Shown piece after piece: positions 21,518-37,588 of a stretch of 64,000 nt of DNA. Every line of letters begins with the position of its first letter. The stretch's first letter is position 1. The translations under genes and the position numbers were made by a program. The notes under the pieces were generated by a model. It was not told the origin of the DNA, did not search any database, and saw only the letters and a list, made by a program, of their open reading frames with translations. Source of the DNA: Archaeoglobus sulfaticallidus PM70-1 (lineage in GTDB: Archaea; Halobacteriota; Archaeoglobi; Archaeoglobales; Archaeoglobaceae); NCBI RefSeq assembly GCF_000385565.1, contig NC_021169.1, positions 806,001 through 870,000 on the forward strand, written 5' to 3'.

Positions 21518-21766
21518 TGTTATTAATTTTTTCTGTGTTTGGCTTGCTTATGTGAATATCGTTTTTAAATATCCTTTTTCCAGTTATAGCAGATCCCAAC
21601 CGATTCATAACTTATTTCCCTGAAAAGAAGCGAAAGCTGACCTACCTTTCTCAGAAGTAAGCCAGAGAAATTCAAAAGCAAATCAGCTCGCAGGAAGATA
21701 ACTATTAACCAAAGTGTTGTAAAAGGAGAAATCGGACATGTAGAAGAAACGGACATGTAGAAGTTA

Positions 21767-21863
21767 AGAGGCATCATTAGATGATTGTCCATCTAATAAC
21801 GGATAGTAACCCATCCTCAGTTAAAACTTCGGGATAAATCTCGAGATTTTAACCTTCGCCTTT
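21767..21863 (-). ncRNA. Structured RNA element, copy 1
   Basis: A 97-base element with a terminal stem (AGAGGC/GCCTTT on the plus strand) enclosing three helices: an 8-bp hairpin (ATTAGATG/CATCTAAT), a 6-bp hairpin that on the minus strand is GGATGG-GTTA-CTATCC, and an extended helix (GTTAAAA/TTTTAAC) capped by TCGAGA/TCCCGA. A paralogous copy at 26436-26552 shares the junction sequences GGCGAAGGTTAAA and TTTAACTGAG while the stems covary. Upstream on the minus strand is CCAAAGTGTTATATACTTTGA, also conserved in copy 2. The minus strand is therefore preferred. G-U wobble evidence on strand is mixed. Function unknown. Confidence 0.55.
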
Positions 21864-21876
21864 ATATAGCGGTCAA

Positions 21877-21890
21877 AGTATATAACACTT
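21877..21890 (-). promoter_or_regulatory. BRE/TATA promoter of RNA copy 1
   Basis: The minus strand reads AAAGTGTTATATAC, an AAAG BRE-like run followed by a TATA box, about 20 bases ahead of the first bases of the RNA element. The corresponding site in front of copy 2 is AAAAGAATTATATAG with the same flanks (CCAAA before, TTTGA after), so the promoter is shared between the copies. The spacing to the element is about 8 bases shorter here than in copy 2. Confidence 0.45.
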
Positions 21891-22620
21891 TGGTCAAAAC
21901 AGATCTATTGATAAAAATCACAAAGAGATTATGTTCAGGAAAGTCGAATTACTGGGAGTTGGCTCAAAATACGAATTCGAAACCCAGAATGGAGATAAAT
22001 TGCAATTGTATTTTTCCTACCAGGAAAAATTCAGCTCTACATTCCCGAAAAAGCCGTGAAAAGCCATGCATGGTGAACTTAACCGAAAATGCTTTTTGGC
22101 AGCCATTTTAACAGCTCTCATTGTAACGGCTATTGCTGGAAAATTTTTTGTCAGGAGCAATTATAGGAATTCGTTCATAGATCCTTTTCCTCAGGGATCG
22201 AAATTTGTGCTTCAACTGTTGCAAGTTATCCTGCTATTGCAATCTATGCTGAGCTTAGCGAAAGGGGAAGATTATGGCAATCTTCGGAGCTGTAAACTCC
22301 AAACTGGTTTGGGCAATCTGGCCAGAATACTGACAGCATCAACTCCGAAATATTGCCCAATTATCTTTTTGCAACACCTCTTCCACACCGTCTCCGTTTT
22401 TAGAGTATTGATACTAATTCCTCCAAGATTGTAGAGATTAATTTACTTAGGTCGTGAATTTCAATCTACTTTACAAATAGTGAAGTGTGTCACGGCAAAA
22501 ATCTTGTTGAAGTTACGCTTTGAGGATTTTTTGAATGTTATTATAAATTAAATTAGATAATAGATAGTTACATTTTTATACTTTGTATTATATGTATAAA
22601 TCACAAGAAGGTGGAATATT

Positions 22621-23781
22621 ATGGATGTTGAGGAATTAAAGAAACTTATTAGAGACGATTATGACGTTATTAGCGCAAGTGAAACGATTTCGAAGGTAAT
22701 TTCAATGTTGGGTGAGTCCAAACATGAAAGAGCCCTGTTGGTTGAAGAAGATGGCGAAATCATTGGGGTTGTAAGAGAAAAGGACCTAGTCAGGGGTAGC
22801 CTAATGACGAACCCTGATGAAACGAAAATCAAGAAGTTCGCTGCGAAAACTGGAATCGTTCGCCTTGATGAGCTAACACCAGATAAAGTGGCAAGAAGGT
22901 TTATAGAGGATTCCACACCCTTTGTTCCTATAAAGCTCAACGGAGGATTTGGAGTTATCCACATCAATGATTTTCTACAAAAAATAAAACAAGAATTTGA
23001 AAATGTTGAGATTGGGGATGTTATGAATCCAGAAGTTATAACTGTGAAAACGTACGATGGTATATCCAAGGCTCTGGCTACTATGAGAAATCATGGCATT
23101 AGCAGAGTTGTTGTAGTTGATGACGAAAATAAAGTTGTTGGAATCATTACTGGGAAGGATATAGTAGATAGGGTTGTGTCTCTGGGGAAAGACGATAGGC
23201 TTGGATATCTGAGCATGAAAGAAAAAGAAAAAACGCTTTCAATAGTGGTTGAGAGTATAATGAGTCGTCCGGTTATAACAGTTGAGAGAAATGATACGAT
23301 TGCCAAAGCTATTGGCCTGATGATTGAGAATGACATATCAAGCCTCGTGGTTACAAGGGGTAGTATTCCTGAGGGGGTAGTGGTAAAGAAAGATCTTCTA
23401 GAATATTACTTAAAGACGACCATTCCAAAAGAGTATGAAGTGCAGATCATCACGAAAGGTGTAGTTTTGGATGATTCTGAAATAGAAAAACTCTTAGACG
23501 AATTAAACAAGTTTTTGAGGAAGTTCAAGAGTTCTCTTGGGAAGGCCCATCTATTTGTTTATATAAAGAAACTCAGACTGTACTACAGAGAGATACCTCT
23601 CATTCACGTGATGATGAGGTTAAGAAGCGATCATGGAGTTTTTTTTGTTACTGGTGAAAGTTGGGGTGTGGAGTTTGCAGTCCATGCAACCTTGAATAAG
23701 CTCGAAAGACAGGTAATAAAGGATAAAGAGCTTTTACTCGATAAGAGAATGGTGCAAAGGCTTTACGAGGAAGTTCTTTGA
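22621..23781 (+). CDS. CBS-domain protein with C-terminal HPF-like region
   Basis: A 386-residue soluble protein. CBS motifs start near residues 10, 60-120 (degenerate), 140 (VEIGDVMNPEVITVKTYDGISKALATM) and 210 (VVESIMSRPVITVERNDTIAKAIGLM). The last 130 residues (EVQIITKGVVLDDSEIEKLLDEL, LFVYIKKL, MMRLRSDHGVFFVTGESWGVEFAVHATLNKLERQV) follow the strand-helix pattern of ribosome hibernation factors (S30AE/HPF type). CBS-containing ribosome hibernation factors have been reported in archaea, so a stress role on the ribosome is plausible but inferred. GAAGGTGG precedes the ATG. Confidence 0.75.
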   Translation: MDVEELKKLIRDDYDVISASETISKVISMLGESKHERALLVEEDGEIIGVVREKDLVRGSLMTNPDETKIKKFAAKTGIVRLDELTPDKVARRFIEDSTPFVPIKLNGGFGVIHINDFLQKIKQEFENVEIGDVMNPEVITVKTYDGISKALATMRNHGISRVVVVDDENKVVGIITGKDIVDRVVSLGKDDRLGYLSMKEKEKTLSIVVESIMSRPVITVERNDTIAKAIGLMIENDISSLVVTRGSIPEGVVVKKDLLEYYLKTTIPKEYEVQIITKGVVLDDSEIEKLLDELNKFLRKFKSSLGKAHLFVYIKKLRLYYREIPLIHVMMRLRSDHGVFFVTGESWGVEFAVHATLNKLERQVIKDKELLLDKRMVQRLYEEVL

Positions 23782-23967
23782 TAACAAGGCATCAATTTTC
23801 TAATATTTTTTTATCTACAGCCCTTAAAATGCGATTTGCAAATAATTGCTTGGAATAGTGGCTACTCAGCTGCGTAGAGTGAAATCTCAGGATACTCTTC
23901 AACTCCCATAGCCATCTTGGAGAGGGAAATTATCATATTAATGTCATGCCATTAAAAGATGAGTTTG

Positions 23968-24030
23968 TTGTTAAAAAAAGCTGAGGTAGGACTTGAGCTC
24001 ACTTGGGTAAACTGACGCCTTATCATCTAG
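23968..24030 (-). pseudogene. tRNA-like remnant
   Basis: On the minus strand the segment contains CTCAAGTCCTACCTCAGC, resembling a T-loop and acceptor 3' half, and upstream ATCTAGATGATAAGGCGTC, resembling a D-arm to anticodon-stem segment. The T-stem has one mismatch and the anticodon stem has a bulge, so a functional tRNA is not expected. It lies between the CBS gene and acs. Low certainty. Confidence 0.2.
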
Positions 24031-24043
24031 ATAATTTGTTTAT

Positions 24044-25972
24044 TTATTTTGCCCCCTTAACATCCTTAATCTTCTCAACAACCGTAATATCTTCAAGGGT
24101 TGTGATATCTCCTATTTCCTCGCCCTTCTCGATAGCAAGTAGAATCCTACGCACTATCTTTCCACTTCTCGTTTTTGGTAGCTGTTCGACGAAGTATATC
24201 TCTTCAGGCACAGCTATTGCACCTATCTCGTTTCTAACATGCGTTTTAAGGTCTTTTTCAAGTTCGACGCTCGGCTCGTAGCCCGTCTTAAGGACAACAA
24301 AGGCTACTGGCACTTGACCTTTGATCTCGTGGGGCTTACCGATTACAGCTGCTTCGCTTACAGCTTCATGAGATATGAGCGCACCTTCGATTTCAGCACT
24401 CCCAAGCCTGTGACCGCTGACCTTCAGAACCTCATCGATCCTTCCTATTATCCAGTAGTATCCGTCTCCATCCTTCCTTGCTCCATCCCCAGTATAGTAA
24501 ATGAGTTCGCCTGAGTCATTTGACCGCCAGTACTGTTTGGCAAATCTTTCTGGTTCACCCCACAGATTTCTGAACATTGCTGGCCACGGATTCGTTATCA
24601 CGAGCTCTCCGCTATCTGCTGGATTTCCTTTCTCATCGCGTATATCCACTAAAATTCCTGGGAAGGGCAGAGTTACAGAACCGGGCTTGAGCTTGGTAAC
24701 TCCAGGCAAAGGGGCTATTACGACCATGCCTGTTTCTGTCTGCCACCATGTGTCAATGACGGGGCAGTGTTCATTTCCTACATTCTTGTAGTACCACTTC
24801 CAAGCCTCCGGATCTATCGTTTCACCGACTGTTCCAAGCAGACGCAACGAGGATAGATCGTGTTTCTCCAGCCACTCCTCGCCGAGCTTCATGAAGTAGC
24901 GTATTGCAGTGGGGGCGGTATAGAAAACGGTCACACCATACTGCTCAATAATGCTCCACCACCTGTCCGGCTGAGGATAGTCAGGGGCACCTTCGTAAAT
25001 TAAAATGGTCGCACCGTTGCTAAGAGGTCCATAGACAACATAACTGTGGCCAGTAATCCAGCCTATGTCAGCAGTGCACCAGAATATGTCTCTATCCTTC
25101 AAATCGAAAACCCACTTCGTCGTGATGTGGGTGCCAACGTTGTAACCTCCATGAACGTGAAGAACGCCCTTGGGTTTGCCTGTTGTTCCCGACGTATATA
25201 GGATGAACAACGGATGTTCGCTGTCAAGAGCTTTGCACTCACATTTGTCGGGAACCTTTTGCAAATCATGCCACCAGATATCTCTTCCATCGACCATGCT
25301 CACATCATTGCCGATCCTCTCAAGCACAACAACGCTCTCAACGTTGCAATCCTCCAGAGCTTTGTCAACGATGCGCTTAGTCTCAATAACCTTGCCCCTT
25401 CTGTAGTAACCATCCATTGTAACGACTACTTTAGCATTAGCATCGTTTATCCTGTCTCTCAGGGCTGTCGAGGAGAAACCTCCAAAAACCACATTATGAA
25501 TCGCACCAATTCTGGCGCATGCAAGCATCGCAATCAGCAACTCTGGCACCATCCCCATGTAGATTGTGACTACATCTTGCTCCTTAACTCCAAGCGTTCT
25601 GAGGGCGTTGGCAAACCTGCAAACTCTCCGGTAGAGCTCGTGGTAAGTTATCCTTTCTTTCTCATTTTCAGGTTCTCCCTGCCATATTATTGCTGTTTTG
25701 TCTCCTTTTGACTCTATATGCCTGTCCAGGCAGTTGTGGGTTATGTTGATCTTCCCACCAACATACCATCTATAAAATGGAGCATTGCTGTCATCAAGCA
25801 CGTCCTCATATGGCTCAAACCACTCAATATCGCTCTTTGCTACTTCATCCCAAAGTGTAAGGTAATCCTGAGCCATCTCGTAAATCCTTTCATTGTTAAC
25901 CCATGCATGCCTTCTGGTTTCTTCTGATGGCTCATATATCTCGCCTTGGGAAAATTCTTTTGAATTGTTCAT
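24044..25972 (-). CDS. acs: Acetyl-CoA synthetase, AMP-forming
   Basis: A 642-residue ANL-superfamily enzyme with full Acs features: the N-terminal WFEPYEDVLDDSNAPFYRWYVGGKIN, FILYTSGTTGKPKGVLHVHGGY (P-loop), DTWWQTETGM, YYTGDGARKDGDGYYWIIGRIDEVLKVSGHRL (hinge) and PKTRSGKIVRRIL, whose lysine is the acetylation site of the family. It activates acetate (or propionate) with ATP to acetyl-CoA, AMP and PPi. GGTGA precedes the ATG. It is not in an operon. Confidence 0.95.
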   Translation of the reverse strand: MNNSKEFSQGEIYEPSEETRRHAWVNNERIYEMAQDYLTLWDEVAKSDIEWFEPYEDVLDDSNAPFYRWYVGGKINITHNCLDRHIESKGDKTAIIWQGEPENEKERITYHELYRRVCRFANALRTLGVKEQDVVTIYMGMVPELLIAMLACARIGAIHNVVFGGFSSTALRDRINDANAKVVVTMDGYYRRGKVIETKRIVDKALEDCNVESVVVLERIGNDVSMVDGRDIWWHDLQKVPDKCECKALDSEHPLFILYTSGTTGKPKGVLHVHGGYNVGTHITTKWVFDLKDRDIFWCTADIGWITGHSYVVYGPLSNGATILIYEGAPDYPQPDRWWSIIEQYGVTVFYTAPTAIRYFMKLGEEWLEKHDLSSLRLLGTVGETIDPEAWKWYYKNVGNEHCPVIDTWWQTETGMVVIAPLPGVTKLKPGSVTLPFPGILVDIRDEKGNPADSGELVITNPWPAMFRNLWGEPERFAKQYWRSNDSGELIYYTGDGARKDGDGYYWIIGRIDEVLKVSGHRLGSAEIEGALISHEAVSEAAVIGKPHEIKGQVPVAFVVLKTGYEPSVELEKDLKTHVRNEIGAIAVPEEIYFVEQLPKTRSGKIVRRILLAIEKGEEIGDITTLEDITVVEKIKDVKGAK

Positions 25973-26435
25973 TTTTTCACCTAATTTATTCTAAACATTC
26001 ATTCCTAATAAGTTTACCTGAGTTAATAATATTCTAATAATATAAAACTCAAAAGTATTCATGAGATTATGAACCTTACGATTTTGAAGCACACAGATAT
26101 TTTGCGGGAGTCTTGAGTAGTATAATCTGATCAGAGTGCTGGCTACAAGGAATAATACCCATACTAAAATCACGCTACTTTTTCTGCCAAAACTTGAGAC
26201 AATTCAGTACTATGAAATAATTCAGCAGTTTAAAATTTCGAAAGTGTGTCTAAAGAAAATGCTCTCTTGACGGGTTGAGTTCTCTCCAAATCGTGTTCGT
26301 CAACCCCATTAAGCTTAAAAACAACTATTTTGAAAACTTAGTTAAAAAACAAGAAGACTTCTGATTAAGATTCAGCAATCTTAAGTTCTTAGAATACTAT
26401 TTAACTATTACAAACTATAAGAGATAGATTTAATA

Positions 26436-26552
26436 GGAGGCATTGTTGGCGGACGTTACCACCAACAACGAGTAGTTACCTACTCTCAGTTAAATTCCTA
26501 GGACGCAGAAAACCCGTAGGTTTTCGATCTTAGAGGTTTAACCTTCGCCTCC
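26436..26552 (-). ncRNA. Structured RNA element, copy 2
   Basis: A 117-base paralogue of the element at 21767-21863. The terminal stem is GGAGGC/GCCTCC. Inside are a long hairpin (TTGTTGGTGG/CCGCCAACAA on the minus strand, one T-G wobble), a hairpin GAGTAG-GTAA-CTACTC closed by a GNRA-type tetraloop, and a GTTAAA/TTTAAC helix extended by GAAAACC/GGTTTTC. The junction sequences GGCGAAGGTTAAA and TTTAACTGAG are identical with copy 1, whereas stems differ by compensating changes. A TATA box on the minus strand is centred about 27 bases before the first G. No open frame runs through it, and no gene follows within 460 bases, so it looks like a free-standing RNA. Confidence 0.6.
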
Positions 26553-26572
26553 AGTACTTATTAGTCTCTCAA

Positions 26573-26590
26573 ACTATATAATTCTTTTGG
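26573..26590 (-). promoter_or_regulatory. BRE/TATA promoter of RNA copy 2
   Basis: Minus strand CCAAAAGAATTATATAGT: an AAAAG BRE-like stretch and a TATA box centred 26-27 bases from the first base of the terminal stem at 26552, the standard archaeal distance. The same motif with the same flanks precedes copy 1. Confidence 0.55.
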
Positions 26591-26732
26591 CAACTATATG
26601 GTACGGCTTGTAAAACACCATAAAAAGCCAAACAATGTTTTAGAGAGGATAAAAACAAAATTTTTAACCAAGATCTTCTAGATTTTGTAAATAAAATATA
26701 TTGGAATTAATATATATTGGAATCTTAAAAGA

Positions 26733-26840
26733 AAGTCGATGCTTAGAGCTCAGCTCGGAAAAGCGTGCGACTGAAGACTGCATGGTTGTCAAGTCAAGCT
26801 CCAGGCACTTTTCTTCTTGTTCAAATCCGTTTGTGACGCT
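26733..26840 (+). pseudogene. tRNA-Phe-like remnant
   Basis: AGCTCAGCTCGGAAAAGC looks like a D-arm, GCGACTGAAGACTGC like an anticodon arm with anticodon GAA, GGTTGTC like a variable loop and TTCAAATCC like a T-loop. But the D-stem has a mismatch, two extra bases precede it, the T-stem does not pair, and about 27 bases are inserted between the variable loop and the T-loop. It is probably a degraded or interrupted tRNA-Phe copy. A noncanonical intron cannot be fully excluded. Confidence 0.35.
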
Positions 26841-26997: not shown

Positions 26998-27690
26998 TCA
27001 GTACTTTCCCGTCCACTCTCCATTTTCGTCATAGTTCAATGACTTTGCATAACCACACGCATTCCAGATGGAGTCAAAACATGGTCGCAGTACTTTTTCT
27101 GGTTCAATATCGTAGCTTTCAACTACAACCTCCGGAACTAACAGAGTGTCTCTATCGACGTATGACTCATATTCTGGCAAGAATAAAGGTTTGTCATGAG
27201 CCATATAGTACCCACTAACCCCAAGTAGAGAAACAAAGACAAATATTGGTGGTTTAACATTTAATGCATTAAGAACGGAGAGATAATCTCGAAGTGCCTT
27301 AATCAATTCTCCTTCTAAAGCTTCACCAGGTATGACTTGCTCTTCCCCATGTTGTCTGAGCATCAACCCGTCAACAGCTTCAACAACTCCATTCCTGAAA
27401 AATTGAACATATGAATGGAATCTTCCTTCTCTGTCTGTGCAGTAAGTCAAGAAGCCATCGAAATTAAATCTCTGTTTCCCTCCAGGACAATTCATTGGAC
27501 TCTTTTTGTGGGAGAGGTCTTCTAACTCACTTATATCAAAAATTTGACTGGAGTTAATTGAATCTATCGGTATCAGATGAAGAACAACTTTGGCACCCTC
27601 CAAAAGAGGGACGGGGGTTTCATTCACAGATATTTTTGAGATCCTGTCTTCTCTAAATTTTCTGATATTATCTATTTCTTTGTAAATCAT
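26998..27690 (-). CDS. AlbA_2/Schlafen-like protein lacking its N-terminal domain
   Basis: A 230-residue protein matching the C-terminal half of AlbA_2 (Schlafen AAA_4-like) helix-turn-helix proteins: RKFREDRISKISVNETPVPL, GAKVVLHLIP, RFNFDGFLTY, SYVQFFRNGVVEAVDG and LNVKPPIFVFVSLLGVSGYYM. The usual N-terminal AlbA_2 DNA-binding/nuclease-like domain is absent and no matching frame lies upstream. So it is a truncated gene or a free-standing form of the C-terminal domain. It sits in a gene-poor, accessory-looking region. Confidence 0.65.
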   Translation of the reverse strand: MIYKEIDNIRKFREDRISKISVNETPVPLLEGAKVVLHLIPIDSINSSQIFDISELEDLSHKKSPMNCPGGKQRFNFDGFLTYCTDREGRFHSYVQFFRNGVVEAVDGLMLRQHGEEQVIPGEALEGELIKALRDYLSVLNALNVKPPIFVFVSLLGVSGYYMAHDKPLFLPEYESYVDRDTLLVPEVVVESYDIEPEKVLRPCFDSIWNACGYAKSLNYDENGEWTGKY

Positions 27691-30603: not shown

Positions 30604-30955
30604 CATAAAATTGGTGTGACAATACCAAGTCTAACTGGAATTACATTTTGAGATTTAATCTTTTCCCTTTTTGCACTCTGCTCGATTGGGGCAGATAGCA
30701 ACAAAGGTCATGAAAAAGCGATGGTGTATCTTTTATTCTTCAAAACCCATCAATTCCCGAGTGAAATCGAATATTTTGAGACTCCTCCTTATTTTCCAAT
30801 ACTCGCGATCCAAATTCGTCTATGACAACTTCTTTTATCCGCAAAAAGTTGTCCGAAATTATGACGAAATGAATATAATCGGAAAAAGTCCAATAAAAAT
30901 GAATATGAAAAATAATATCATAATTGTTGAAGGTTGAGTGTTGGGGGATGAAAAG
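30604..30955 (+). other. Intergenic stretch before the lipoprotein gene
   Basis: About 350 AT-rich bases without a convincing gene. An 88-codon frame (30671-30937) has no recognisable domain or ribosome-binding site and is probably spurious. GGGGGATG at 30943-30950 is the ribosome-binding region of the next gene. Confidence 0.4.
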
Positions 30956-33900
30956 ATGCATTTAACTTGGAAGGTTGCAACGGTTGTAATCCTTACCGTA
31001 CTGATCGTCTCCGTTTCCGGGTGTATTATGAGAAATAATTTGGAAAAGCACATAAAAACTGGAGAAAAATCTTCATCTGAGGCTCCTTTTATATTGGCAG
31101 CAAGTTCAGAAGATGGCATTCATTTTTCTGAATCAGAAAAAGTCATTCAAGGATCCGTTCCAGAAGTTTTGAAAGTTAATGGGAAATTTCTTATGTATTA
31201 TGTGATTCCTGGAGAGGATGAAATAAGGATCGCTGAGTCTGAAGACGGTATCCATTTCCACAATTCTCAAGTGGTTATCGAAAAAGGGGATGAGTATGAC
31301 AAATTCGGTGCAGTTGACCCAGCAGTCATTCAGATATCTGAAAATCTTTTCAGGATGTACTATGTTGGTTGGGAAGAAGACATTCCTGGAGGATGGGGAA
31401 GAAACAGTTTACTAACTGCTATTTCAACTGATGGTATTCATTGGAAGAAAGAACGGAAGATACTGTCAAAAGAAAAACTCTCAGATGTTGCAGTTATCAG
31501 AATAGAAAATGGGTTTAGGATATATTACTCAGATAAGGATAATCTCTACGCATTTGATAGTGCAGATGGTGTGAACATTACTAAAGATTGGGGCAGAATA
31601 ATGGAAAGAGTTTCTGTACCTTTTGTTTTAAAAACTGACAATGAGTACAGGCTTTACTATACCAAGGTCCCAGATAGCCCGGAAGAAGGTATAGATGTAT
31701 ACCTTTCCACCTCCAAGGATGGTATCAACTTTACTGGAGAAAAACTAATTTTAGAGAATGCCGATGCTCCTTGTGTAATAAAAGTCAACGAAAAGTTTGT
31801 GATATACTATCACATACCTCCGCCACCGCCACCAGAAGCTTCAGGTGAAGAGAAGAGTGTGCTCAGGAGCATGCCTCAGGGTACAGCCACGCTATCAGAC
31901 AGGTTCGGTTTCGTTTGTTTTGATCCTTTAGCCATAAGCGATTTGAACCTCGGCTGGCTTAGACCACATCCTGGTCCTTTTATATGGGATAAAATTGAAC
32001 CAGAGAGAGGAAAATATGATTTCAGCGAAGCGGATGAAGTGGTTAGAGAGGCTCAGGCAATGGGCTTGAACATTCTTGCAACAATCTGGCCTTATGCAAA
32101 GTGGGATCAGGAGAAGTGGGGTAACATAGACAGATTTGTTGAAAAGCGAGACTTTCCCGAACTTCCTTTCAGCAGGTATAAGCCATACAACATGCAAGCG
32201 TATAAAGAATTTGTTAAAGCTCTAGTTGAGAGGTATGATGGTGATGGATTTAATGACATGCCAGGCTTAACAAAGCCTATAAAGTACTGGGAGGTCATTA
32301 ACGAACCATCAACAGGCATTATCTGTAAATTTGAAGGAAAAAATGCAGGATTTTTTAAAGGAGACGCGGAAGATTACTTTGAAGTTTTGAAGGTTACTTA
32401 TGAAGCCATTAAAGAGGCTGACAAGGATGCAAAGGTTCTGAACGGTGGAATGGTTCCCCTGCCACCGGAAAAAGGCGAGGTTTCAGATGGATTCTACGGC
32501 TTCTGGAACAAAGTGTTTGAGATGGGAGGAAGTAAGTATATTGACATAGTAAACTTTCACTCCTTCTCTCCGTATGAGGATGCAATAAGGCTAAAGGAAA
32601 GATTTGGAAAGTATGTTGCTGGCAAACCTCTATGGGTTACAGAGTTTTCTGCTACTGATGAGTATAGATACGTAGAGGCATCAAAATCCTTTGGTGAAGG
32701 TGTAGAGAGGATTTTTTACACTGCATACAGAGCATTTCCTGAAGCTCCAGAGGATCTTATCACTGGAAGCTTGATAGATTTTGAAGGGAATCCAAAACGA
32801 TCCTACTATGCAGTCAAAACCATGAATATAATTATCGGTAATTTTGATGAAGTGGAGAAGTTGAGCGATGCCCTTTACAAATTTAAGGTTAACGACATGA
32901 TAGTTTACGTTGTGTGGAGCAGTGATCAAGAAATACTCGAAGGATTTGAAGGAAAGCTCTTGGTTGTCGATATCACCGCTCATGCAAATTTGATTGAAGC
33001 TGAGAAACTTAAACTTGGAAGTCTGCCGGTATATATTGTCTCTGGAGATGAGAAAAAGCTGAAAGAGCTGCTCTCATTGCTAGAGGATGTTGAGCGATTA
33101 CCTCCACAAGATATGGGTGACGATATCAAAAAGAATCCAGTGGAGATACCTGAAGCTTTTGCATTCAGATTTGGAGGTTGGGGGCACAAGCATGATGAAT
33201 ATGCTTATACTCCTGGATATCGCTGGATGAAACCGCATCCAGGACCTTTTAACAGATATTTCATAGAGAAAGAGAAAGGTGTTTATGATTTTTCAGCATG
33301 TGATGAGGGAGTAAAGAGAGCTCAGCAAACTGGGGCTGAAATCGTTGCTACAATCTGGCCTTACACAGAATGGGATGAAGAAGCTTACAAAGGAAGAGAG
33401 GGATACGGTGAAGCTACTGGAGGAGGACCTTTTGCCTATGTTTTACCTTCATCCAGATTCAAACCATACGATATACAAGCATATAAAGCGTTCGTCAGAG
33501 CTTTAGTGGAAAGATATGATGGGGACGGTATAGACGACATGCCAGGATTAAAATACCCAATAAAATACTGGGAGATTCTAAACGAGCCTGAGGCCCAGCA
33601 CGACAACAAATACTTCTTTAAGGGAAGTGGGAAGGAATACTTTGAACTTGTAAAAGCAACTTATGAAGCTGTGAAGGAGGCAGATTCAACAGCAAAGGTA
33701 GTTTTGGGTGGTGCAGCAACTTTGGATAAAGAATCAATAGAATGGTGGGAAGAATTTTACTCTTTGGGAGGAGGAAATTACTTTGATATTGCTGGGATAC
33801 ATTCCTACGCGGATGAAAAAGATGATTTCAACGTGGATGATTTGAAAAAATTGCTTGAAAAATATGGGATTAACAAGCCAATATGGGTTACAGAAGTTGG

Positions 33901-34297
33901 ACCTACAGGTGAGATGAGCAGAGAAGATGGCATCATGTTTGCAAAAGCAGCGATACGAGCTTTTGCGAATGGAGCAGAGGTTCTGTTCTTCGATTATAAG
34001 CCAGTTGCCCATGTTATGGCGTATATTATTGGAGATTTTAATAGAGTTGAAAAGTCAAGTGAAGGAGTGTATGTATTTGAAACAAAAGAAGACAAAGTTT
34101 ACGTTGTTTGGAAACCTGGAAAATTCCCGATTGAAGGGAGTGAAATTTACGTGGCTGATATCTACGGAAATGTCAGAGTAGAAGATGCTTCAGGAATAGA
34201 AGTAGGAGACACACCGATCTATCTGTTCAAGAGTGAGAAGATTTTGCAAAGATTAAAGATGTTCATGAAAGCGCAGGGAGAAGAAAAGAATTACTGA
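30956..34297 (+). CDS. Large lipoprotein: beta-propeller plus two GH39-like TIM barrels
   Basis: A 1,113-residue secreted protein. A signal helix ends in a lipobox (VSVSGC, about residue 21). Residues about 45-285 contain repeated SEDGIHF/STDGIHW/SKDGINF blades of a GH43/GH32-type five-bladed propeller. After a proline run (PPPPPPEA) come two homologous barrels, about 300-690 and 720-1,110. Each has HPGPF, a NEP acid/base motif (YWEVINEPS; YWEILNEPE) and a nucleophile glutamate (LWVTEFS; IWVTEVG), as in GH39/GH5-type clan A hydrolases. Both barrels keep both glutamates. ATG 30956 is chosen for its GGGGGATG site. The substrate is unknown, possibly a surface polysaccharide or N-glycan. Confidence 0.78.
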   Translation: MHLTWKVATVVILTVLIVSVSGCIMRNNLEKHIKTGEKSSSEAPFILAASSEDGIHFSESEKVIQGSVPEVLKVNGKFLMYYVIPGEDEIRIAESEDGIHFHNSQVVIEKGDEYDKFGAVDPAVIQISENLFRMYYVGWEEDIPGGWGRNSLLTAISTDGIHWKKERKILSKEKLSDVAVIRIENGFRIYYSDKDNLYAFDSADGVNITKDWGRIMERVSVPFVLKTDNEYRLYYTKVPDSPEEGIDVYLSTSKDGINFTGEKLILENADAPCVIKVNEKFVIYYHIPPPPPPEASGEEKSVLRSMPQGTATLSDRFGFVCFDPLAISDLNLGWLRPHPGPFIWDKIEPERGKYDFSEADEVVREAQAMGLNILATIWPYAKWDQEKWGNIDRFVEKRDFPELPFSRYKPYNMQAYKEFVKALVERYDGDGFNDMPGLTKPIKYWEVINEPSTGIICKFEGKNAGFFKGDAEDYFEVLKVTYEAIKEADKDAKVLNGGMVPLPPEKGEVSDGFYGFWNKVFEMGGSKYIDIVNFHSFSPYEDAIRLKERFGKYVAGKPLWVTEFSATDEYRYVEASKSFGEGVERIFYTAYRAFPEAPEDLITGSLIDFEGNPKRSYYAVKTMNIIIGNFDEVEKLSDALYKFKVNDMIVYVVWSSDQEILEGFEGKLLVVDITAHANLIEAEKLKLGSLPVYIVSGDEKKLKELLSLLEDVERLPPQDMGDDIKKNPVEIPEAFAFRFGGWGHKHDEYAYTPGYRWMKPHPGPFNRYFIEKEKGVYDFSACDEGVKRAQQTGAEIVATIWPYTEWDEEAYKGREGYGEATGGGPFAYVLPSSRFKPYDIQAYKAFVRALVERYDGDGIDDMPGLKYPIKYWEILNEPEAQHDNKYFFKGSGKEYFELVKATYEAVKEADSTAKVVLGGAATLDKESIEWWEEFYSLGGGNYFDIAGIHSYADEKDDFNVDDLKKLLEKYGINKPIWVTEVGPTGEMSREDGIMFAKAAIRAFANGAEVLFFDYKPVAHVMAYIIGDFNRVEKSSEGVYVFETKEDKVYVVWKPGKFPIEGSEIYVADIYGNVRVEDASGIEVGDTPIYLFKSEKILQRLKMFMKAQGEEKNY

Positions 34298-37492: not shown

Positions 37493-37588
37493 TCCCGCCT
37501 CCCGGATTTGAACCGGGGACCGCCCGATACCTGCTCACCAGCAGGGGCAAACTACAGTCGGGCGCTCTGGCCACTGAGCTAAGGCGGG
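37493..37588 (-). tRNA. tRNA-Tyr (GTA) with a 23-nt intron
   Basis: The minus strand folds as a tRNA: acceptor CCCGCCT/AGGCGGG with C1:G72 (the archaeal Tyr identity pair) and A73, D-stem GCTC/GAGC, anticodon stem CCCGA/TCGGG, T-arm CCCGG-TTCAAAT-CCGGG. The anticodon loop CTGTAG is interrupted after position 37 by a 23-nt intron at 37529-37551, which contains a CCTGC/GCAGG hairpin; A38 follows. Removing the intron leaves a 73-base tRNA with no CCA encoded. Confidence 0.93.

Follow-up and report, generated by a model that had tools for sequence, protein, structure and literature searches.

The window, a 64,000-nucleotide stretch (bases 806001-870000) of the closed 2,076,931-bp genome of Archaeoglobus sulfaticallidus PM70-1 (PMC3703591), carries on its minus strand two similar structured elements, one of ~97-101 nt at 21764..21864 (the 21.8-kb copy) and one of ~117-121 nt at 26433..26553 (the 26.4-kb copy). 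An initial annotation had reported the same architecture at both places, and the coordinates and sequences are as it described, including the conserved junction strings GGCGAAGGTTAAA and TTTAACTGAG present in both copies and the stem in which GGATGG/CTATCC of one copy is replaced, by compensation, with GAGTAG/CTACTC in the other. It had also called the surrounding DNA gene-poor, but genes for a CBS-domain protein and an acetyl-CoA synthetase sit between the copies. The intact RNA gene at 26.4 kb is adjoined by a 230-aa open reading frame (26998-27690, minus strand) with no Pfam or PADLOC match, and a gene at 30938-34297 (plus strand) encodes a 1119-aa predicted secreted protein that matches several glycoside hydrolase families and shows, by eye, two related catalytic-like halves.

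The 26.4-kb copy, the best in the window (covariance-model score 94 bits, E 3e-20), is intact. All of its parts lie on the minus strand: a closing stem P1, formed by GGAGGC (26547..26552) and GCCTCC (26436..26441) and supported by the fold and by covariation of alignment columns 2-7 with 145-150; the joint J1/2 (GAA, 26544..26546), of which A9 and A10 are invariant in 21/21 sequences; P2, a long hairpin with a UACG tetraloop (26488..26543), likewise supported by fold and covariation; the joint J2/3 (26486..26487), which reads GA in 20/21 sequences; P3, the hairpin GAGTAG-GTAA-CTACTC with a GNRA loop (26470..26485), in which five of six pairs have changed on both sides; and P4 (GTTGTTGGTGG..CCGCCAACAAT, 26442..26469), which stacks on P1 without a linker and has changed on both sides in seven of ten pairs. 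The 21.8-kb copy (77.6 bits, E 3e-16) has the same hairpins (P2 21819-21854, P3 21801-21816, P4 21773-21800) and a shortened P1. The initial description of a 6-bp stem closing a junction of three helices needs two corrections: three hairpins and the closing stem make this a four-way junction, and the stem of the 21.8-kb copy does not have six intact pairs, one of them being an A-C mismatch. On the minus strand the 26.4-kb copy has a minimum free energy of -54.3 kcal/mol (z -7.1) and the 21.8-kb copy a z of -4.5, and for each 0/200 dinucleotide shuffles folded as well. The 21.8-kb copy, whose tip branch exceeds every other in the tree, looks partly decayed, with its short stem and a TATA box that is too close; it may be decaying, or its start site may be different.

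Comparative searches confirmed from sequence that the two loci are copies of one previously unlisted small RNA gene family. Plain DNA similarity recovered only two close homologues (in genomes G026 and G001), and an exact search with the junction string returned two copies in genome G013 along with one chance, coding-like match in G004, so that a covariance model was needed. A first model, built from six sequences, found 22 significant copies over the order, which by the refined model come from 14 of the 57 Archaeoglobales genomes examined, the homologues being spread across Archaeoglobaceae and several copies per genome being common in the RNA-bearing members of the order. The supposition that this was an uncharacterised archaeal noncoding RNA with at least two copies is supported, the actual count in A. 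sulfaticallidus PM70-1 being four copies, one of them broken. Weak model matches at L031, L038, L064, L065 and L094 were judged to be chance; the fold of L038 is not alike, and L064 and L065 are located between coding-like sequence. When 394 genomes of the phylum were searched, matches came from these 14 Archaeoglobales genomes alone. Scanning 84,980 species for the pattern gave further exact matches, of which the model confirmed only those from Archaeoglobales, and searches of viral, phage and plasmid collections yielded no match. The hosts presumably include A. profundus (G026), A. veneficus (G009) and Geoglobus acetivorans (G006). The genome of A. fulgidus (G035) has no family match, and since most Archaeoglobales, A. 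fulgidus included, lack the RNA, the group can do without it.

The fold consists of P1, the joint GAA, a long P2, the joint GA, P3 and P4, with no linkers between P3 and P4 or between P4 and P1. In an alignment of 21 sequences, fitted to the model and therefore leaning towards structure, 95.9% of pair cells are standard and both sides vary in 21 of 32 pairs; sliding the partners by 1-3 columns reduces pairing to 29-53%. Because such an alignment favours structure, double changes were counted on the tree: 25 branches carry a double-compensatory change, spread over 18 pairs, compared with a mean of 1.8 and a maximum of 7 in 40 trials in which the 3' columns were permuted among pairs, and with 0-5 when the partners were slid. 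Covariation, for which the initial annotation had proposed a test, is thus strong against both tree-aware and slide controls. The evidence for the transcribed strand, which had appeared split in the two window copies, is resolved by the homologues: G-U cells outnumber A-C cells by 90 to 10 in the 21 sequences, which identifies the window's minus strand as the RNA strand. The columns that at least 90% of sequences retain belong to P1, to the joints (A9, A10, G97, A98) and to the feet of P2, P3 and P4, so that the junction and the adjoining helix ends are conserved while the hairpin stems and loops drift. The retention of shape while the letters change marks it as a real RNA.

The 26.4-kb copy is preceded by a BRE-like sequence (CCAAAAGAA) and a TATA box, TTATATA (26575..26590, minus strand), 28 nt before the RNA, and the 21.8-kb copy by the same TATA box (21879..21885, minus strand) at 21 nt, which is nearer by 5-9 nt than other copies have it. 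The two had been described as having shared promoters, and CCAAA, TTATATA and TTTGA do lie upstream of both on the minus strand, but the TATA spacing differs (28 versus 21 nt). Of 20 copies counted, 18 have TTATATA or a close variant starting 26-30 nt ahead of the 5' stem. The set leaves out L041, whose upstream sequence contains no recognisable promoter, and L052, which has too little upstream sequence; the two exceptions, both at 21 nt, are the window's 21.8-kb copy and the broken L040. Given the usual archaeal TATA spacing, we infer that transcription starts at P1 or within ~3 nt of it. By blast, homology between paralogues at different genome places typically extends from about -50 to -107 through the end of P1 and then stops; the gene unit comprises ~72 bp upstream and the RNA. 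The region of the 26.4-kb copy matches by blastn at 78% over 366 bp in G062 and at 73% over 354 bp in G001, and its upstream stretch (26582..26797, minus strand) is conserved to about -244 among the copies linked to a gene for a UPF0182 membrane protein. A covarying structure and its own promoter at a constant distance, the marks of a stand-alone structured sRNA gene, are thus both present. Comparison of sequences thereby establishes how the RNA folds, which strand encodes it, how its promoter is spaced, what the gene unit comprises and how the family is spread through Archaeoglobaceae.

The family comprises three classes. Class A includes the window's 26.4-kb copy, those of G026, G062 and G001, a Geoglobus pair and, loosely, the 21.8-kb copy; its P2 is long, and UACG and GNRA caps are found in the 26.4-kb copy, G026, G062 and G001. 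Class B consists of ten copies and the broken L040, with hosts in the window's genus and in genus g9. Upstream of class B copies lies a palindrome, TTGACAAC-N13-GTTGTC, which in the window's genome is confined to the two class B RNA genes (element TTGACAACAATGTAAAATTAAGTTGTC at G000:C1:324886-324912 and 1051500-1051526) and is the likely site of a regulator. Class-specific conserved DNA lies just upstream in two of three subgroups, and paralogues with different upstream elements suggest sibling RNAs made under different conditions. Class B also has conserved loops, ACGG in P2 and CCGU in P4 (AACCGUA being the P4 loop of nearly every class B copy), with 3-6 complementary bases between the two loops in all copies; this complementarity shows no covariation and is absent from classes A and C, and a P2-P4 loop-loop contact within the class B RNA is offered as a suggestion only.

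Class C, from genus g5, consists of the copies in G009 and G020 and two in G029, in which the RNA continues directly, without a linker, into CYGGGTTCGAATCCCGGGGYACC, the intact T-arm and 3' end of a tRNA lacking a 5' partner (L043:9905-9936, minus strand; L042:6676-6700, plus strand; L041:3254-3278, minus strand; L044:5036-5061, minus strand). No 5' acceptor strand was found in class C, nor, in the class C genomes, any intact tRNA sharing the 3' end of the T-arm with up to two mismatches; the T-arm as an att site left by integration into a tRNA gene is unsupported, there being no matching intact tRNA in those genomes. Integration into an old tRNA that has since decayed is conceivable. The homology of L041 to its relatives runs only from the start site to the end of the T-arm, so the T-arm is probably part of the transcript; lacking a TATA box, L041 (L041:3277-3374, in G029) looks like a copy of the transcript, although compensatory changes maintain its P2. 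L040 (G000:C1:324941-325034) is a recent duplicate of the copy at C1:1051560-1051663 (89% over 283 bp) and is probably a pseudogene, a deletion having taken out the J1/2 joint and the 5' foot of P2. The two copies of G013 (L048:598-774 and L049:2457-2633) are 96.6% identical over 177 bp, and their homology reaches 72 bp upstream and 4 bp downstream before it breaks off abruptly. One of them occupies the UPF0182 locus, where class A copies stand in other species, which suggests gene conversion or transposition.

The neighbours vary, most being chromosomal genes of metabolism and transport and many lying on the other strand; no consistent association with mobile-element genes was found. They include genes for acetyl-CoA synthetase, the UPF0182 membrane protein, a CBS protein, a cation ATPase (by eye), UbiD, a response regulator, Fic, DUF1297, a GTPase, tRNA-Glu and others. 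Copies in five genomes share a similar neighbourhood at UPF0182, but UPF0182 was rejected as a functional partner, since it is encoded in 29 of 57 genomes, twice the number with the RNA and many of them RNA-free, and is missing from three RNA-bearing genomes; the adjacency is, on this distribution, one of shared locus descent rather than function. Full-model scoring of the UPF0182 loci of RNA-negative genomes revealed no hidden degenerate copy.

At the Rfam 15 gathering cut-off, the window and seven relative loci yielded only ordinary tRNAs, the RNA itself scoring far below it, and permissive E-values added chance matches only; the family that the initial annotation could not place in Rfam is indeed without a match there. 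The window also contains, at 37493-37588 (minus strand), a 96-base tRNA match (58 bits) that was missed by ARAGORN and is probably an intron-bearing tRNA gene. Neither class of guide RNA that the initial annotation had named as a possible refuting match fits. Size range, archaeal host and a CUGA word in most copies recall box C/D and H/ACA RNAs, but the C box RUGAUGA is present in 0/21 sequences, the CUGA word sits at the P2/P3 joint and is UUGA in some copies, ACA is missing from the 3' tails after P1 in 21/21, and the family has neither a shared open internal-loop pocket nor a free guide stretch. A likeness to tRNA lies in the cloverleaf-like four-way junction, in P4 directly on the closing stem and in the real T-arm of class C (CCGGG UUCGAAU CCCGG), but the RNA is called by neither ARAGORN nor RF00005, its T-arm is confined to one genus and no 5' acceptor strand was found. 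A resemblance to Y RNA and YrlA (small size, a structured fold, the word CGAAGG and a tRNA-like tail in one genus) is opposed by a different overall fold and by the lack of any Rfam Y RNA match; TROVE (Ro) protein was found in 0/57 genomes of the order, with the positive control genome recovered. Decoys of the 6S RNA and CsrB type would act alike if the protein-binding role proposed below is right, but the Rfam scans revealed no sequence or model similarity to them. Archaeal intergenic trans-encoded sRNAs such as sRNA162 of Methanosarcina mazei (PMC3510493) are likewise small and stand-alone with their own archaeal promoter, but the present family is far more structured, is multi-copy and has a four-way junction kept by covariation.

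It is on balance probable that the family is a stand-alone, promoter-bearing RNA gene whose structured product acts in trans, bound to protein, and a role of this kind is the most likely one. Each copy would be transcribed from its own TATA/BRE promoter into a product of ~100-130 nt with its 5' end at P1, which would fold into the four-way junction P1-P4, with GAA and GA as its two short, unpaired joints, and work with a protein, either as a scaffold or as a decoy like 6S or CsrB. That this is an RNA gene and not a DNA element such as a cruciform or a recombination or replication site, which inverted repeats foldable on either strand might suggest, is indicated by the fixed TATA box spacing and by the excess of G-U over A-C cells, unexpected for a DNA fold; the DNA element is barely conceivable. 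A cis-acting leader of the next gene (riboswitch, ribosomal leader or attenuator) is very improbable: both window copies do have a same-strand gene downstream, at 247 and 460 nt, but the downstream genes vary by synteny group and frequently face the other way (L042, L044, L046, L047, L050), gene distances range from 94 to 500 nt and the conserved unit stops at the end of the RNA. The fixed place before functionally related genes that marks a riboswitch or leader is not seen, and the differing neighbours instead point to a stand-alone gene.

Within the stand-alone readings, a protein-bound RNA is favoured over an antisense one because conservation lies in the junction and adjoining helix ends, not in exposed strands; no exposed single strand common to all copies would fit as a guide or antisense seed. 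An antisense-type sRNA, whose hairpin loops would pair with mRNAs as in sRNA162, shares the intergenic gene with its own promoter and would account for loops conserved within a class, such as AACCGUA in class B, and the class-specific loops ACGG and CCGU could be contact sites for other RNAs. Yet classes A, B and C have wholly different loops around a constant junction, most class A loops are capped by stable UACG or GNRA tetraloops, and the mutually complementary class B loops suggest an internal contact, so that this reading is unlikely, if with an appreciable chance. Quite unlikely is a small mobile or selfish RNA gene, copied together with its promoter (SINE- or MITE-like, or by gene conversion) and serving its own spread. 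The sharply bounded homology of the near-identical G013 pair, the internally deleted duplicate L040 in the window's genome, the limitation of L041's similarity with its relatives to the span between putative start site and T-arm end, and the patchy spread among genomes all favour it; against it, no transposase, integrase or virus consistently accompanies the copies (a single rve integrase lies beside L055), the UPF0182-linked copies, in similar neighbourhoods in five genomes, suggest descent in place, and selection keeps the fold in diverged copies. A more speculative form of the protein-bound reading, which we put forward tentatively and think rather doubtful, is a new type of lineage-specific archaeal RNP in which the junction binds a protein or ligand not known to use RNA, the paralogues are under separate regulators, and the T-arm tail gained in the genus of A. 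veneficus ties the RNA to tRNA-processing or ribosomal factors.

Experimental surveys of archaeal sRNAs cover few species, the Archaeoglobus surveyed being A. fulgidus, whose RNomics is reviewed in PMC3432209; since this species has no match to the family, early RNomics on it could not have found the RNA. What emerges from the comparison of genomes is a well-supported multi-copy family with its core fold, strand, promoter and host range defined. Its hosts include a cultivated type strain, A. sulfaticallidus, and presumably two more, A. profundus and A. veneficus, and the family would be an addition to Rfam 15.
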